Source: Bacillota bacterium (GTDB taxonomy: Bacteria; Bacillota; UBA4882; UBA10575). From it: a stretch of 64,000 bases of DNA. The stretch spans positions 1 through 64,000 of the forward strand of contig JAAYHY010000160.1 of NCBI GenBank assembly GCA_012735135.1, written 5' to 3'. The translations under genes and the position numbers were made by a program. Position 1 is the stretch's first letter. Each line of letters starts with the position of its first letter. Of this stretch, positions 53,653 to 64,000 are shown piece by piece. The notes under the pieces were generated by a model. That model had not been told where the DNA came from, did no database searches, and was given only the letters and a program-made list of their open reading frames with translations.

Positions 53653-54033
53653 ATGAAAAAACTCACTATCTCAATGGAAAATTATCTTGAAGCCATATAT
53701 GAGCTTTCCGACGGGAACTCCGGCACCAGGGTTTCGGATATCTCCGAGCGCTTGGGGGTCACCAAGGCCAGCGTCAACAACGCCATGTCCACGCTGGCCG
53801 AAAAGGGACTGGTTGTCAACGAGAAATATAAAAAAGTCTTTTTAACCCCCGCCGGGTTGGAGCAAGCGAAACTAACCTCCAAAAAACACCAGATTATTCA
53901 GGAGTTTTTTATTAAGGTATTGAAAGTCGATGCCGTCGTTGCCGATAAAGACGCCTGTTCCATCGAGCATGTCATCAGTAGCGATTCCGTCCAGGCCATG
54001 CAGTTATATTTACAGGCCAACAAAGCCGAATAG
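53653..54033 (+). CDS. Short DtxR/MntR-family regulator
   Basis: MENYLEAIYELSDGNSGTRVSDISERLGVTKASVNNAMSTLAEKGLV...; 126 aa, no SH3-like domain. Confidence 0.88.
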   Translation: MKKLTISMENYLEAIYELSDGNSGTRVSDISERLGVTKASVNNAMSTLAEKGLVVNEKYKKVFLTPAGLEQAKLTSKKHQIIQEFFIKVLKVDAVVADKDACSIEHVISSDSVQAMQLYLQANKAE

Positions 54034-56387: not shown

Positions 56388-58193
56388 CTAAAAAATATTC
56401 TGGACAAACGACCCAAGATGGTTCATGATGCCACCCACCAACAGCGCAGTCAGGGTAGTGCTCACGGTAATGGTCACGGCGGTGCGGGCGTTAAACTCTT
56501 TGGCAATGATCCCGAACACCGATAAACATGGCAAATAGAGCAAGGAAACAACCGCCCCGACATACATCTGGAGGGGGGTCAAATTAAGCCCCAAGAGCGG
56601 CGCCACCGACATCTCCCGGCGGATAATCCCTAAAATCAGAGACATTACGGCTCCCTCCGGGAGGCCCAGCCAACCCGAGACCACCGGCTTCAACAACTCG
56701 CCCAATCCTACTAAAAGACCGGTTTCCGCTATAATGGCGGCAATAAAGACAGCAATGAGCATCGGTCCTTCCGCTTCCACGATAAACTGCGTAATTCTAA
56801 CCTTCAGTTTCTTGAAATACGCTTTGGGCTCGGGAATCAGCAGATTGGGCACCTCAAGAATCAAAGGATCCACCTTGCCTTTGAGGACTTTCCCCAGGAT
56901 CATAGCGACCGTCACAAAAATCACAAACCCTGTCAACACCGTGGCCAACAGCAACCAGATGGAGTAGGCCGATAACAAAGTGATCAAGGCGCCGGTCTGC
57001 GAAATACAGGGAACCGCAAAACAGACCATGGCCGTGACCATGAGACGTTCCTTTTGGGTGGTCGCGCTCCGGGTACCGATAATCGCCGGGACGGCACAAC
57101 CAAACCCAAGGAAAATATGAATCAGACTGCCACCCTGAACCCCCAGTTTGCGCATGATGTTGTCAAACAGAACGGCAATCCGGGGCAAAACACCGCTATC
57201 TTCCAGAAAGGCAAATTGAATCTGGAACAGGATGACATAGGGCATCACCAAGGCTAAAATCCATTCAAAGCTTATCCGCAAAACCCCGTAGTTTCCGATT
57301 AAGATATTATGCAAAACCGGATGTAAATTCAACGGCATAATCAGACGTTCAAAGAAAGGAACAATCCCCTGATTGACCAAAGGCAGAAGAATCGCCGCCC
57401 GCAGGGCCTTTCCACCACCAACCACAATCCCCAAGCTAACCAGGAGAATCAACAGTGCCAGCGGTAGACCGGGCCAAGGCCGTAGTAAGGCATCGCCCAA
57501 CCGATCCAAGAAGTTAGGCTTGGCATCTGTACGGGATACCGTTTTCTGCACAATCTCCCGGGCCCGCTCCCAATAGCCCAACCCGCGATTCCCCTTTGCC
57601 AAACCGCAGCCGGCACAACCGGCACAACTGGAACAGGGCGTTCCGGCAATAGCCGGATGTTTAGCCGTTAAGATCCGTTCAAAAGCACGGGTGATCTGGT
57701 CAAGACCCTGACCTTTCACGGCCACGGTCGGAATCACCGGCGCCCCAAGCTCCTGCTCCAACAGTCTATCGTTGATTTTCAAACCTTTCCGCTCCGCCAC
57801 ATCCATCAGATTGAGGGCAAAAACAATGGGCACATCATATTCCATAACTTCCAGCGCCAGCTTGATGCTGCCCTCCAGATCAGCGGCATTAAGAACAAAA
57901 AGCACAGCAACGGGATTGCTGCACATAAAACGGATGGCTACCTCCTCCGCCACCGAAGTTGCCGCCAAGGAATAGGTGCCCGGGACGTCAATCAGCGTAT
58001 ATTGGGTATCGCCTACCCGATAGGAACCCTCCATATAAGAAACGGTGGTTCCCGGATAGTTTGAACTAATCACATGGACGTTGGTCAGTGCGGAAAAGAA
58101 AACACTCTTTCCTACGTTGGGAGGGCCCATCAGTAAAATTTTTTTCTCTTTCGCCAAGATTTTGCTGTCCTCGGCGATGATATGACATTTCAT
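56388..58193 (-). CDS. feoB: Full-length ferrous iron transporter FeoB (second copy)
   Basis: G1 GPPNVGKSVFFSALT, G3 DVPGTYSL, G4 NLMDV, Gate motifs FLGFGCAVPAIIGTR. Confidence 0.95.
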   Translation of the reverse strand: MKCHIIAEDSKILAKEKKILLMGPPNVGKSVFFSALTNVHVISSNYPGTTVSYMEGSYRVGDTQYTLIDVPGTYSLAATSVAEEVAIRFMCSNPVAVLFVLNAADLEGSIKLALEVMEYDVPIVFALNLMDVAERKGLKINDRLLEQELGAPVIPTVAVKGQGLDQITRAFERILTAKHPAIAGTPCSSCAGCAGCGLAKGNRGLGYWERAREIVQKTVSRTDAKPNFLDRLGDALLRPWPGLPLALLILLVSLGIVVGGGKALRAAILLPLVNQGIVPFFERLIMPLNLHPVLHNILIGNYGVLRISFEWILALVMPYVILFQIQFAFLEDSGVLPRIAVLFDNIMRKLGVQGGSLIHIFLGFGCAVPAIIGTRSATTQKERLMVTAMVCFAVPCISQTGALITLLSAYSIWLLLATVLTGFVIFVTVAMILGKVLKGKVDPLILEVPNLLIPEPKAYFKKLKVRITQFIVEAEGPMLIAVFIAAIIAETGLLVGLGELLKPVVSGWLGLPEGAVMSLILGIIRREMSVAPLLGLNLTPLQMYVGAVVSLLYLPCLSVFGIIAKEFNARTAVTITVSTTLTALLVGGIMNHLGSFVQNIF

Positions 58194-58711: not shown

Positions 58712-59647
58712 CTATTCGGAGAAGAGCGGCGTTGAGAGGTAGCGTTCGCCGGTATCAGGAAGGATGACGACAATCACTTTACCGGCGTTTTCTTGACGCT
58801 TTGCCACTGTGGTGGCCGCCCACAGGGCCGCCCCGGAAGAAATCCCGACCAGCAGCCCCTCTGTTTTCGCCAGTTCCCTACTGGCCGCAAAAGCATCTTC
58901 GTTTTGCACGCGAATAATCTCATCATAAATAGAAGTATTCAGGACCTTGGGGACAAAACCCGCGCCAATGCCCTGGATTTTATGGGGACCGGGGTTCCCT
59001 CCGGAAAGAACGGGCGAAGCGTCCGGCTCCACCGCCACCACCTTTAGCCCGGGTTTTTTCGCTTTCAGATATTCACCCGCCCCGGTCAGCGTGCCTCCGG
59101 TGCCCACGCCGGCGACAAACAGATCAACGGTCCCGTCGGTATCTTCCCAGATCTCGGGGCCGGTGGTTTTCCGGTGCATCTCCGGATTGGCCGGGTTGTC
59201 AAACTGGCCGGGAATAAAGGAATTGGGAATTTCTTTGGCTAGCTCCTCTGCTTTGGCAATGGCGCCGGCCATCCCCTTGGCGCCCTCAGTCAGCACAAGC
59301 TCGGCCCCGTAGGCCTTGAGCAGGTTTCTCCGCTCAATGCTCATGGTCTCCGGCATAGTCAAAATAACGCGGTAACCGCGGGCCGCCGCCACCGCCGCCA
59401 ATGCTATACCCGTGTTTCCGCTGGTCGGTTCAATAATGACCGAATCGCGGGTCAACAAACCCTTCGCTTCGGCATCCTCGATCATCGCTTTGGCAATCCG
59501 GTCCTTTACACTCCCAGCCGGATTAAAGTATTCCAGTTTACCGATGAGTGTCGCCGTAAGTCCTTGCTTTTTTCCGTAGTTCACCAGTTCCAACAGAGGT
59601 GTTTTCCCGATCAATTCCGCTATGCTCCGGTAGATTTTCGCCATCAT
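58712..59647 (-). CDS. cysK: Cysteine synthase (O-acetylserine sulfhydrylase)
   Basis: [45 protein letters not shown]. Confidence 0.97.
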
Positions 59648-59669: not shown

Positions 59670-59687
59670 CATATATGTTTTATATGG
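59670..59687. promoter_or_regulatory. Shared palindromic operator candidate upstream of cysK
   Basis: CATATATGTTTTATATGG, nearly identical to 62286-62303. Confidence 0.55.
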
Positions 59688-59800: not shown

Positions 59801-59820
59801 TACATATTATTTATATATGA
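59801..59820. promoter_or_regulatory. Related AT-rich site upstream of the Rrf2 gene
   Basis: TACATATTATTTATATATGA; complement TCATATATAAATAATATGTA. Confidence 0.4.
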
Positions 59821-59821
59821 A

Positions 59822-60280
59822 ATGAGTGATACCATGCGCATCTCAGCAAAAGGCCGGTATGCTCTGGCCGCGCTAACATTTATGGCCCAGCGGTATAATA
59901 ATGGTGAATATATCACCATCCTTTCCATCTCGGAGGATCTTGGCATCTCCAAAATCTATCTGGAACAGGTGTTTTCGCTCTTGAAAAAAGCCGAACTTGT
60001 CTTCTCCGCCAAAGGCGCCCAAGGTGGTTACCAACTGGCGCGTACGCCTAAAGAGATCACGGTCCTGGATATCTTATCCGCGGTGGAAGTGTCCTTATTC
60101 GAACAGGCGCAGGATACGGTCCCGGAAAAAGCTCCGGAAATTGAAAAGGCCTTGCGGCGGTCGGCCTTTGAAGTCCTGGACCAAAGTATCGAAAAGACAT
60201 TGAGGGGAATAACCCTGGCCGATCTGGTCAGCGCGGCAGAAAAGTATAAGCAAGACCATACGCTGATGTTTTATATATAA
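59822..60280 (+). CDS. Rrf2-family regulator (CymR/IscR-like)
   Basis: MRISAKGRYALAALTFMAQRYNNGEYITILSISEDLGISKIYLEQVFSLLKKAELVFSAKGAQGGYQLAR. Confidence 0.95.
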   Translation: MSDTMRISAKGRYALAALTFMAQRYNNGEYITILSISEDLGISKIYLEQVFSLLKKAELVFSAKGAQGGYQLARTPKEITVLDILSAVEVSLFEQAQDTVPEKAPEIEKALRRSAFEVLDQSIEKTLRGITLADLVSAAEKYKQDHTLMFYI

Positions 60281-60471: not shown

Positions 60472-61344
60472 TTAGCTACCGCCGGTTGTCCTCTGATCAA
60501 ATGTTTCCCTGATCCAGTTTGTAATATGATCATCGGTCGCCGCCGGATATTCCAACTGAAGTTTATCGGCTGTTTCCACCGAAAGTCTCCGAAATAGGCT
60601 AATCGATGCCAACAACCCCCTTAAGCTGTCTTTCTCATCATATTCGCTAAAAATGTCTTTTAGTTCCTTTAGTGTCCTTTGGTCAATCCATTCATGGAGA
60701 AAGCGTCCCCCATGCCAAACATCATAATCACTACCATGGAATGCTTTGGCATGCCATTCCATCATTTGCAGCAGTAGCATTCTAAGCTCATTTTCCCTGG
60801 TTTTGGCGGTCCATAATTCTCCCCGTATAATTTGTTTGGCTATATATAGAGAGGCGAAGAAAAACATATTAACAACTTGAACAAAAGCACCCCTATCAAT
60901 GGGCGAAGTTGATACCGGCTTAAAATCCGCCGGCACTATATGACTGCTTACATTATCCTTGTCCACCAAGACCCTTACTCCCCGATGAAAGTTGTGCGGG
61001 GTTATTCCATCCTTGGCCAATTGGTACAGGCTACTACTGGCCAAAAACACTATATCAACCTGATATCCGCCTTCAAATAGAGTAAGACGTTCCGGCTCGC
61101 CACTGGAAGTCTGATAAGCAAAGGTTACCCAAATCTTACCGAGGTTTTTCAACCAATCGATATTGTGTAAATAGAAATCACTATTATTTGCATATAAAAT
61201 AATGTCCAAATCGGCCCATTCATCGGCGGGATGATCAACACGGGCTCTTGACCCCACAATAAAAACAGCTCTTATATCATCTGTTGCTTCGGCCCATTTT
61301 GCAAAGGCTCTTTCAAATGTCCGGTAAAAATCATCTGCTTTCAT
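60472..61344 (-). CDS. Nucleotidyltransferase, aminoglycoside 6-adenylyltransferase-like
   Basis: AVFIVGSRARVDHPADEWADLDIILY; ANT(6)/AadK-like layout. Confidence 0.88.
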   Translation of the reverse strand: MKADDFYRTFERAFAKWAEATDDIRAVFIVGSRARVDHPADEWADLDIILYANNSDFYLHNIDWLKNLGKIWVTFAYQTSSGEPERLTLFEGGYQVDIVFLASSSLYQLAKDGITPHNFHRGVRVLVDKDNVSSHIVPADFKPVSTSPIDRGAFVQVVNMFFFASLYIAKQIIRGELWTAKTRENELRMLLLQMMEWHAKAFHGSDYDVWHGGRFLHEWIDQRTLKELKDIFSEYDEKDSLRGLLASISLFRRLSVETADKLQLEYPAATDDHITNWIRETFDQRTTGGS

Positions 61345-61457: not shown

Positions 61458-62003
61458 TCACTTCTGATCTTCGAGGTATGGCAAGCGGCCATGTTTCACC
61501 CATAACCTGGCTTCCACCAGCCTGTGCTCCTGCTCCACATTGAGGCAACTGGTAAGCATTACCCCGTTCTTCCATGCCGAAGTGGATTCAATGACCAGCC
61601 CGTCGCCAATATATGTCCCCACATGCCCGCTTATCCAGACAATTTCCCCCGGGGTAATCCTGGAAAAATCCGTAGACGGCTTGCACCTGGCAATCAACTG
61701 GTCGGCGGAGAGGTCGGGGACCCCATTGGCTTTGTACTTGGCGCCGCCATGGGCTTTGGTGGGATCCCCGTTCCACCCCCAAAGGATTCCTTTGATTAAC
61801 CCCACACAATCAAAGGCAAAATAATCCCGGTCGATCAGTTTATATAAAAATTCCCTTCTCGTCTTTGTATACCAAGAAGGATATTGCTTTGTTTTTTCAT
61901 CAATGAGTTTCCGGGTCACCGGTGAGCCAAAAGTCCCCCACATATAAACGGTTTTATAATTCAAGGTCGCTAATAATTTTTGTAAAAATTCTTCTCTTGT
62001 CAT
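61458..62003 (-). CDS. NlpC/P60-like cysteine peptidase
   Basis: AFDCVGLIKGILWGWNG ... SRITPGEIVWISGHVGTYIGDGLVIEST (Cys-His layout). Confidence 0.72.
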   Translation of the reverse strand: MTREEFLQKLLATLNYKTVYMWGTFGSPVTRKLIDEKTKQYPSWYTKTRREFLYKLIDRDYFAFDCVGLIKGILWGWNGDPTKAHGGAKYKANGVPDLSADQLIARCKPSTDFSRITPGEIVWISGHVGTYIGDGLVIESTSAWKNGVMLTSCLNVEQEHRLVEARLWVKHGRLPYLEDQK

Positions 62004-62246
62004 TTTTACCCACCCTAAACTGTTAATCCTCACAAAGCTCCATTTTTCCCCAGTAGAAAAGAGACCAATAACTGACTAACGTTGCCGGTCCGGTTGGCCC
62101 GGTCTGGGTCATTTATTATTTGAAAGACTATTGTTGTAAAAATAATATTTATTATAACCGTTGGTAGAACCATATTTTTTATCCAGTGGAATCCATGCTT
62201 ATGATTATTAAAACATACTTATCATATATGTTTTTAAAATTTTTTC

Positions 62247-62275
62247 TTGACATTTACCCCAAACTGCTATATTAT
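62247..62275 (+). promoter_or_regulatory. Consensus sigma70-like promoter
   Basis: TTGACA - 17 nt - TATTAT. Confidence 0.85.
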
Positions 62276-62285
62276 ACCTATCAAT

Positions 62286-62303
62286 CATATATATTTTATA
62301 TGT
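62286..62303. promoter_or_regulatory. Shared palindromic operator candidate just downstream of the -10
   Basis: CATATATATTTTATATGT; 17 of 18 positions match the core at 59670-59687 apart from one or two bases. Confidence 0.6.
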
Positions 62304-62321: not shown

Positions 62322-62447
62322 ATGACTAGTCTAAAGACCAAAAAGATGATCACCTCCTTTGCCATGCCCATGATGGGTTGTTTAGCTATGCCTGACTTTT
62401 ACATAGATCGGCGAATGTTACCATTTACTCCCTTTGTTAACTTTTAG
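62322..62447 (+). CDS. Met-rich 41-aa small ORF
   Basis: RBS TTAGGAGTGG then MTSLKTKKMITSFAMPMMGCLAMPDFYIDRRMLPFTPFVNF*. Confidence 0.55.
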   Translation: MTSLKTKKMITSFAMPMMGCLAMPDFYIDRRMLPFTPFVNF

Positions 62448-62458
62448 TGGTGCAAATG

Positions 62459-62494
62459 GTGCCGTTCGCCAAAGGCGAACGGCACTTTTTTTTT
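62459..62494 (+). terminator. Intrinsic terminator/attenuator between small ORF and nitrogenase-like gene
   Basis: gtgccgttcgcc aaa ggcgaacggcac TTTTTTTTT. Confidence 0.92.
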
Positions 62495-62587: not shown

Positions 62588-64000
62588 ATGACCAAGATCA
62601 ATTTAGCCCTGCCCGCGGCGGCGATCCGGGAGATCCGCATCAATTCGATCACCGGCTATCAAGGAGATGCCGAAGAGCTTGTCAAAGCCGGTGGTTGCGA
62701 CTTGAAAGATAAGGAACGTTCCTTTAGCCAGTGCATGGGCTGCACAACCTCGAAAGCGGCCTGTATGACCATTCTGATCCAGGATGCCGCGGTGATCAGC
62801 CACGGTCCGGTGGGATGCGCCTCCTGCCTTCACGAATTTTCCTTTACCTACCGGGTAAACGCGCCTCTCCGCGGAGTAAAGAAGCCCACCCCCCGGCGGA
62901 TCTTCTCCACCAATCTCCAGGAAAAGGAGGCCATTTACGGCGGCGGTCTTAAACTGGCCCAGGCCATCCGGGAAGTGCAGAACCGCACCAACGCCAAGGT
63001 TATCTTTGTCTTGACCACCTGTGCCTCCGGGATCATCGGCGACGATGTGGAGAGTGTTTGTACGGAAGCCGAGGAAGAACTGGGTATTCCGGTTGTCCCC
63101 ATTTTTTGTGAGGGTTTTCGTTCCAAGGTCTGGACCACCGGCTTCGATGCGGCTTATCACGCCATCGCCCGCAAACTTATCCCCAAGCCCCAACAGCGGC
63201 GGAAAGATCTGATCAACGTGATTAATTTCTGGGGTAGCGATGTCTTTTCCCAGTGGTTTGCCCCGTTTGGTGCAAAGCCCAATTACATCACCCCTTATGC
63301 AACGCTGGATAACCTGAAACAGGCCGGTGAAGCGGTAGCGACGGTCCAAGCCTGTTCAACCCTGGGCAGCTACCTGGGGGCCGTCCTCGAACAAGATTTT
63401 GGTGTGCCCGAGATTCCGGCCGCTCCCCCCTACGGCATTGCCCAAACCGACCGGTGGTTCCGGGCCCTGGGTCAAATCCTCGGCCAGGAATCGGTAGCCG
63501 AAAAGCTGATCGCGGAAAAGAAAAAAGAGTTTTTGCCCAAAATCGAAGCCCTGCGCCGGAAATTGGCGGGAAAAACCGCTTATGTTACGGCCGGAGCGGC
63601 CCATGGCCATGCCCTGCTGGCAGTCTTGGGCGAACTGGGAGTAACGCCCTGCGGGGCGGCGATTTTTCATCACGATCCCGTCTACGACAGCGGAAGGCCT
63701 GAAAACGATCAGTTGGCCCAGCGCGTGGCCGACTATGGCAATGTGCCCAACTATAATGTCTGCAATAAACAGGAATTCGAGCTGGTCAATGCGCTAAACC
63801 GGCTGCGTCCCGATGTCTTACTGGCCCGGCACGGCGGCATGACGCTGTGGGGAGCCAAACTTGGTATCCCCGCCCTTTTGGTTGGTGACGAGCATTACGC
63901 CATGGGTTATGAAGGCCTGGTCAACTACGGTGAACGGTTAGTGGAAGTTATGGAAAACGACGAGTTTGTCAAGGATCTCGCTAAACATGCGGTTATGCCC
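62588..64000 (+). CDS. Nitrogenase component 1-like protein (NifD/NifK superfamily), continues past window end
   Basis: 471 open codons to the edge; FSQCMGCTTSKAACMTILIQDAAVISHGPVGCASC, VLTTCASGIIGDDVESV, QACSTLGSYLGAVLEQDFGVP. Not in the supplied ORF track. Confidence 0.9.
   Translation, partial: MTKINLALPAAAIREIRINSITGYQGDAEELVKAGGCDLKDKERSFSQCMGCTTSKAACMTILIQDAAVISHGPVGCASCLHEFSFTYRVNAPLRGVKKPTPRRIFSTNLQEKEAIYGGGLKLAQAIREVQNRTNAKVIFVLTTCASGIIGDDVESVCTEAEEELGIPVVPIFCEGFRSKVWTTGFDAAYHAIARKLIPKPQQRRKDLINVINFWGSDVFSQWFAPFGAKPNYITPYATLDNLKQAGEAVATVQACSTLGSYLGAVLEQDFGVPEIPAAPPYGIAQTDRWFRALGQILGQESVAEKLIAEKKKEFLPKIEALRRKLAGKTAYVTAGAAHGHALLAVLGELGVTPCGAAIFHHDPVYDSGRPENDQLAQRVADYGNVPNYNVCNKQEFELVNALNRLRPDVLLARHGGMTLWGAKLGIPALLVGDEHYAMGYEGLVNYGERLVEVMENDEFVKDLAKHAVMP

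Follow-up and report, generated by a model that had tools for sequence, protein, structure and literature searches.

Gene D, the first gene of a putative sulfur-acquisition operon, probably encodes the catalytic subunit of an assimilatory, ATP-driven organosulfur (C-S) reductase that would feed methionine synthesis from an imported substrate. It starts close to the end of the window analysed here, which comprises bases 1-64000 of a 78,990-base contig (2.56-Mb assembly of 161 contigs; completeness 99.3%, contamination 2.9%). The gene at 62588 had been described from the DNA letters as nitrogenase component 1-like, and this description is correct: the protein matches the Pfam family Oxidored_nitro with 302 bits, and its reading frame, still open at the window end (64000), reaches a stop at contig position 64063, giving 491 aa. 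The same sequence-only reading saw no nif genes. This is true of the window, but just past it lie K, NifB-type and NifH-type genes of the same operon. The sequence beyond 64000 thus contains a partner K as well as a NifH-type gene, and the downstream genes do not form a nifHDK or nifEN operon.

The operon consists of eight genes, D first: D-K-NifB-MetY-SBP-permease-ATPase-NifH (Table 1; SBP, substrate-binding protein). D and K are the sole PF00148 proteins in the genome, which hence has one nitrogenase-type DK pair, and the operon NifH is its only true Fer4_NifH protein, three further matches scoring just 22-34 bits. Neither NifE nor NifN is present in the genome. For NifV, all control genomes likewise give matches below the cut-off, and we therefore claim only that the host has none above it. 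The NifB-type protein scores 236 bits against TIGR01290 over its radical SAM part, the cut-off of the full-length model being 344. None of the NCBIfam equivalogs for nitrogenase-type D or K subunits is reached by the D and K of the operon. The SBP matches sulfonate binders weakly, below curated cut-offs, and a structure search with it returned no informative close structure. The GC content is 0.56 in the operon versus 0.49 in the window. Since this D is absent from the 7 other genomes of the host genus and the 8 of the host family that were examined, the host most likely gained the operon horizontally.

Table 1. Positions of the operon genes and of the regulatory features upstream of them
Feature	Position	Strand	Remarks
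cysK, cysteine synthase A	58712..59647	-	470 bits (cut-off 351); divergent from the Rrf2 gene
Operator upstream of cysK	59670..59686	.	same motif as the operon operator
Weaker operator copy directly upstream of the Rrf2 gene	59803..59819	.	
Rrf2-family regulator	59822..60280	+	rrf2 superfamily 102 bits (cut-off 73)
Sigma-70-type operon promoter	62247..62275	+	TTGACA-17-TATTAT
Palindromic operator CATATATATTTTATATG	62286..62302	+	just past the -10 element
Leader ORF MTSLKTKKMITSFAMPMMGCLAMPDFYIDRRMLPFTPFVNF	62322..62447	+	41 aa; 7 Met, 1 Cys
Alternative antiterminator	62410..62470	+	62410-62426 pairs with 62454-62470, taking the 5' arm of the terminator
Intrinsic terminator, leader ORF to D	62458..62486	+	13-pair stem, 3-nt loop, T-run
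D, putative catalytic subunit (nitrogenase component 1, alpha type)	contig 62588-64063 (62588..64000 in the window)	+	
K	contig 64060-65403		ATG overlaps the D stop (ATGA)
NifB-type radical SAM protein	contig 65491-66267		
MetY	contig 66486-67808		
NMT1/SsuA-family substrate-binding protein (SBP)	contig 67828-68886		
ABC permease	contig 69045-70028		
ABC ATPase	contig 70025-70828		
NifH-type protein	contig 70860-71714		

Cluster ligands and active site of D

In a comparison with solved structures, D scores 435 bits against MarD of Rhodospirillum rubrum and 119 against the next-best entry, and K scores 395 bits against MarK compared with 55. An AlphaFold2 model of D, built from 43 sequences with plasmid-borne homologues left out (pLDDT 91, pTM 0.91), is predicted to superimpose on the MarD structure 9FMG with TM-scores of 0.92 (query) and 0.97 (target) at 1.4 Å, whereas nitrogenase alpha chains give query-normalised values of 0.66-0.75 at 3.7-8.5 Å. 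The known system closest to the operon is thus the methylthio-alkane reductase (Mar) MarBHDK of R. rubrum (9FMG, 9D9U; PMC12552129), which also has P-cluster cysteines in both D and K, a NifB-type maturase and a link to O-acetylhomoserine sulfhydrylase.

The counterparts of the published MarD ligand and pocket residues (PMC12552129) were identified in an alignment of 80 D proteins. In MarDK, the [Fe8S9C] cluster is held by Cys270 and His429. The P-cluster cysteines Cys66, Cys91 and Cys158 of MarD correspond to C52, C77 and C145 in D, the cofactor ligand Cys270 to C256, and the Loop I pair Arg428-His429, whose arginine is named as a hallmark in the MarD work (PMC12552129), to R414-H415. His375, Trp195 and Phe199 (MarD numbering) are retained as well, K preserves Cys32, Cys56 and Cys121 of the MarK P-cluster site, and the cluster ligands are conserved in 24/24 aligned clade members. 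The motifs HGPVGC and TTC(A)SGII, singled out earlier as NifD-type landmarks, are indeed present and hold the equivalents of Cys91 and, as TTCASGII, of Cys158; the region said to carry the cofactor-binding cysteine does so in QACSTLGSY, the counterpart of Cys270. The cysteine cluster CMGCTTSKAAC, taken to be unusual, is so for a NifD but not within the Mar group, where the P-cluster motif is normal: in it, C52 corresponds to Cys66 and C59 to MarD Cys73, which leaves only C49 as extra. With all ligands kept, DK carries what a P-cluster and an [Fe8S9C] cluster need, alongside a NifB-type protein that could build the latter and no NifEN for Mo/homocitrate.

The pocket around these ligands differs from that of MarD. 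His194 is replaced by Val in D (Val, Ile or Met in 24/24 clade members), Gln74 by Met (Met or Thr in 24/24) and Tyr/His271 by Ser (Ser, Pro or Ala, once Gln, across the 24 members), and the Loop I motif RHNGLAP reads RHGGMT across the 24 aligned clade members. The nitrogenase ligands and pocket residues Gln191, His195 and His442-type are missing in D, with Trp and Phe at the Gln191 and His195 places; the cofactor His of D sits on Loop I, as in Mar. The D clade would be a Mar paralogue, and given this remodelled pocket its substrate is probably other than that of Mar.

Related observations concern more distant proteins. Throughout the outer group IV branch (14/14 members; rows include L163, L164, L057, L165, L166, L167, L170, L169, L152_14874p and L030_11477m), Cys270 is retained and a His aligns with MarD His429, but Arg428 is missing (GH or similar, not RH), which suggests that [Fe8S9C]-type ligation may reach well past Mar. 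Two D paralogues depart from the ligand set, L168:8051 having RAHG in place of RH and L160:12672 having Cys-Pro, with Asp at the His375 position.

Regulation and gene neighbourhood

That cysK, an Rrf2 gene and shared operators adjoin D had been noticed before, and all three are confirmed. Across the 64 kb, matches to the 17-bp motif CATATATRTTTTATATG (≤3 mismatches) are concentrated at three positions only (near 59670, 59803 and 62286), compared with a mean of 0.35 matches in shuffles. The Rrf2 regulator scores 88 bits against the CymR model, whose cut-off is 195. Between the Rrf2 gene and the operon lies a gene for a streptomycin adenylyltransferase family protein (60472-61344; 158.7 bits); a 191-aa ORF at 61458-62033 has no Pfam match and by eye resembles an NlpC/P60-type hydrolase. 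Genes for a FeoB-type iron transporter (56388-58193) and a DtxR-type iron-dependent repressor (53653-54033) are found within 10 kb of the operon.

Among the 149 small window ORFs with a ribosome-binding site, the leader ORF is the one that has at least five Met. Leader, terminator and antiterminator are all present at the host locus, and the two hairpins are mutually exclusive. The RNA from 62405 to 62475 folds as the antiterminator (MFE -25.0 kcal/mol, z -3.96), and in this genome the antiterminator pairing has P 0.001-0.002 versus dinucleotide shuffles. By these features, the leader region has the geometry of methionine attenuation, and an Rfam scan of 20 kb found no riboswitch and no T-box at gathering score. 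A Met/Cys-rich leader followed by a terminator also precedes D in loci L021, L028, L029 and L036; this arrangement occurs in 5/77 D upstream regions versus 60/8538 control windows. The antiterminator pairing is not general among the relatives, being weak in L028 and no better than chance in L021, L029 and L036.

Elsewhere, Met/Cys-rich small ORFs with a ribosome-binding site (L021:5845, L011:6673, L025:548, L027:2535, L017:8455, L033:7988 and L035:7305) precede other genes of sulfur loci (MetY where identified), several of them with a T-run after the ORF, and a CxMRxxCC motif recurs in three leaders before D. Judged by these sequences, Clostridia seem to have a family of Cys/Met attenuation leaders.

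The order D-K-B-MetY-SBP-permease-ATPase-H was also found by tblastn over the loci in Herbinix, Faecalispora, C. sporosphaeroides and several MAGs; Ruminococcus loci have the order B-H-D-K, and in many of them ABC genes are absent from the fetched flanks. In 45 loci with full flanks, D is linked to K (45), H (38), B (37), MetY (29) and the ABC ATPase (24). Clustering of the neighbours showed CysK genes recurring near D in 46 related loci and, as named by eye from sequence, cystathionine enzymes, amino-acid (Met/Cys) ABC transporters, MetA, Suf proteins, NifU and, near D in 50 loci, a small NifX-like protein that is missing from the host operon. A 2012 survey had already reported that Cys275-bearing nitrogenase-like genes adjoin O-acetylhomoserine sulfhydrylase or cysteine synthase (PMC3464626). 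The ~33% 'MetY' beside true Mar loci proved to be a cystathionine gamma-lyase-like enzyme, and we therefore dropped an apparent split in MetY between Mar and the D clade. For the host operon, MetY, the shared Rrf2-type operator and the Met-rich leader with its hairpins point to methionine supply.

Proposed pathway and competing readings

We propose that the NifB-type protein would make an 8-iron carbide cluster, which would be passed straight to DK without Mo or homocitrate, and that NifH would deliver electrons singly, with ATP, via the P-cluster to this 8-iron carbide cluster. The substrate, brought in by the SsuA/NMT1-type ABC transporter, would be reduced at the cluster with cleavage of its C-S bond. 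The thiol released would most likely be methanethiol, with sulfide as the second candidate, and the operon MetY would join it to O-acetylhomoserine, yielding methionine, or homocysteine that is then methylated by MetH. Sulfur limitation would open expression via an Rrf2/CymR-like repressor common to the operon and cysK, while under methionine limitation stalling of the ribosome on the Met-rich leader peptide would allow the antiterminator to form. In view of the operon's own ABC importer, the substrate is likely polar or charged; the volatile thioethers used by R. rubrum cross membranes.

The sulfur metabolism of the host bears on the product. The host genome encodes no NIR_SIR (PF01077) sulfite reductase and no PAPS_reduct protein (APS/PAPS reductase); of the 14 control genomes, 11 have the former and all 14 the latter. 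NIR_SIR is also missing in 32/49 other carriers, a set that includes a few genomes with only the sister type, and isolates without it include Herbinix (G402), Faecalispora (G409), C. sporosphaeroides (G412), R. albus 8 (G426) and R. albus KH2T6 (G433). As sulfite would be a dead end in the host and most carriers, the product is probably a thiol or sulfide and not sulfite; a sulfite-releasing role is possible in the 17/49 carriers that have a sulfite reductase. Known MetY enzymes use sulfide as readily as thiols, so that MetY in the operon does not prove methanethiol to be the product. Besides a MetH-type methyltransferase, the host possesses a second MetY with 43% identity to the operon MetY, and a division of sulfide and methanethiol between the two MetY proteins would fit.

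It is possible, if unlikely, that a reductase in the same pathway releases sulfide from a cysteine-derived or other sulfur compound without a methylthio group, and thereby feeds CysK and MetY. The common operator at cysK, the leader peptides of some relatives, which are rich in Cys as well as Met, and the acceptance of sulfide by MetY homologues would agree with such a role, but the host leader is dominated by Met (7 Met, 1 Cys) and the Mar-like pocket argues for a thioether.

Mar converts methylthio-alkanes to methanethiol and a hydrocarbon. We consider it doubtful that D simply represents Mar as found in Bacillota, with an unchanged range of volatile substrates (dimethyl sulfide, ethyl methyl sulfide and 2-(methylthio)ethanol). 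Fold and cluster ligands are the same, Trp195, Phe199 and His375 are retained, MetY and NifB are linked, and a captured NifH is common to the D clade and to true MarDK of Bacillota (L154, Pectinatus). However, 399 sampled genomes of the phylum yielded three true MarD orthologues, 74-82% identical to R. rubrum MarD (73-81% in a second comparison), whereas D is only 43% identical to it. In the maximum-likelihood tree, D is one of 24 Bacillota sequences that form a 100/100 clade; the sister group (100/97) consists of two Bacillota copies and one from a Chloroflexota plasmid (Chlorohelix, L118). Mar sensu stricto forms another 100/100 clade inside the same 44-row supergroup, and nitrogenase and NifE sequences are far from D. 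Forcing Mar and the D clade together alone costs 49 log units and is rejected (p-AU 0.0068). Against an identical function speak also the clade-wide replacement of His194, Gln74 and Tyr/His271 and the dedicated ABC importer, which should be needless for volatile thioethers. The host H subunit is of the NifH lineage and not MarH, a trait shared by Bacillota with true MarDK. Two Pectinatus species hold a 73% MarD and a 68-71% D-clade member side by side, which argues for different jobs of the two enzymes. By membership, D is not a MarD, and by mechanism it is predicted to be Mar-like. The tree places D in no characterised clade, and the earlier suggestion of a sulfur-acquiring or other novel nitrogenase-like reductase is borne out for an enzyme that is Mar-related yet separate, but not unique to this genome.

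Several nitrogenase-like DK pairs beside a Mar-type pair are also known from the group IV NflDK of heliobacteria (NflDK2-4; PMC9147875), and the D clade may include some of these NflDK2-4 paralogues. Locus L155 (G175), which shares its contig with Pectinatus cerevisiiphilus L080, has three DK pairs within 20 kb, and these belong to different clades.

A sulfonate reductase that releases sulfite, like the isethionate reductase IsrBHDK of Rhodobacter capsulatus (PMC11423573), is an improbable model for the operon and was rejected. Both systems combine nitrogenase-like HDK with a radical SAM B protein for organic sulfur, and the SsuA/NMT1-family ABC transporter of the operon recalls the SsuCAB-type transporter that Isr needs (PMC11423573). 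However, IsrD has 1/3 P-cluster Cys and no cofactor Cys, whereas D has them all; IsrB is BciD-like, whereas the operon B is NifB-like (236 bits); and Isr yields sulfite, which the host probably cannot use, NIR_SIR being missing in the host and in 32/49 other carriers. It is possible that a sulfonate is reduced directly to sulfide in a multi-electron reaction.

The H subunit scores 449 bits against C. pasteurianum NifH (1cp2) versus 293 against MarH. In a quick H tree (SH-aLRT only), its clade, which includes the H of the Bacillota true-Mar loci (L154, Pectinatus), is nested within nitrogenase NifH, and the H beside sister DKs and other group IV DKs form a separate group. That the operon encodes a nitrogenase, as pipelines would infer from NifH, is scarcely credible and was rejected on residues and missing genes: H exceeds the nifH equivalog cut-off (454.7 vs 394.35) and branches inside true NifH, and three P-cluster Cys each in D and K and an equivalent of the cofactor Cys275 are shared with Mo nitrogenase NifHDK, but D is without Gln191, His195 and the His442-type ligand and far from NifD in bit scores, tree and structure, the genome lacks NifE/NifN and has no NifV above cut-off, and operon and regulation are of sulfur type. 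The nesting of the H clade instead indicates a nitrogenase Fe protein captured for sulfur work, and nifH surveys will count such genomes as diazotrophs.

Distribution and significance

A scan of genome contigs found at least 80 loci with 66-84% identity to D in anaerobic Bacillota (all of this phylum by record title). Going by the same titles, their habitats are digesters, the rumen, termite gut and further guts. Cultivated carriers exist in R. albus, Herbinix, Faecalispora, Acetobacterium and Pectinatus. On plasmid pTS2 of Treponema saccharophilum (L119), CRISPR genes lie a few kb away from two DK pairs with an ABC transporter.

C-S chemistry on nitrogenase-type P- and [Fe8S9C]-clusters is known from a single enzyme (PMC12552129); by prediction, the D clade would be a second, abundant case. 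This bears on sulfur acquisition by anaerobes without sulfate assimilation in rumen, gut and digesters. Should methanethiol be the product, a small hydrocarbon or a carbon acid would be formed along with it, which is of interest for ruminal and soil gases.

By curated cut-offs H counts as nifH, yet the gene set of the host does not suffice for any known nitrogenase. Among the candidate nitrogen fixers named in a human-gut study are carriers of Clostridial cluster III nifH, some with a NifD lacking the cofactor His (PMC4995403), and these candidate diazotrophs deserve a recheck against the D clade. We hold it to be an even question whether the D clade is a functional class of its own among the [Fe8S9C]-type nitrogenase-like enzymes: an organosulfur reductase widespread in Bacillota that differs from Mar in its substrate and possibly in its product, with its own ABC importer, a captured NifH and methionine attenuation. 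If true, such a class would explain part of the 'nifH cluster III' signal attributed to nitrogen fixation in Clostridia of the gut and rumen.
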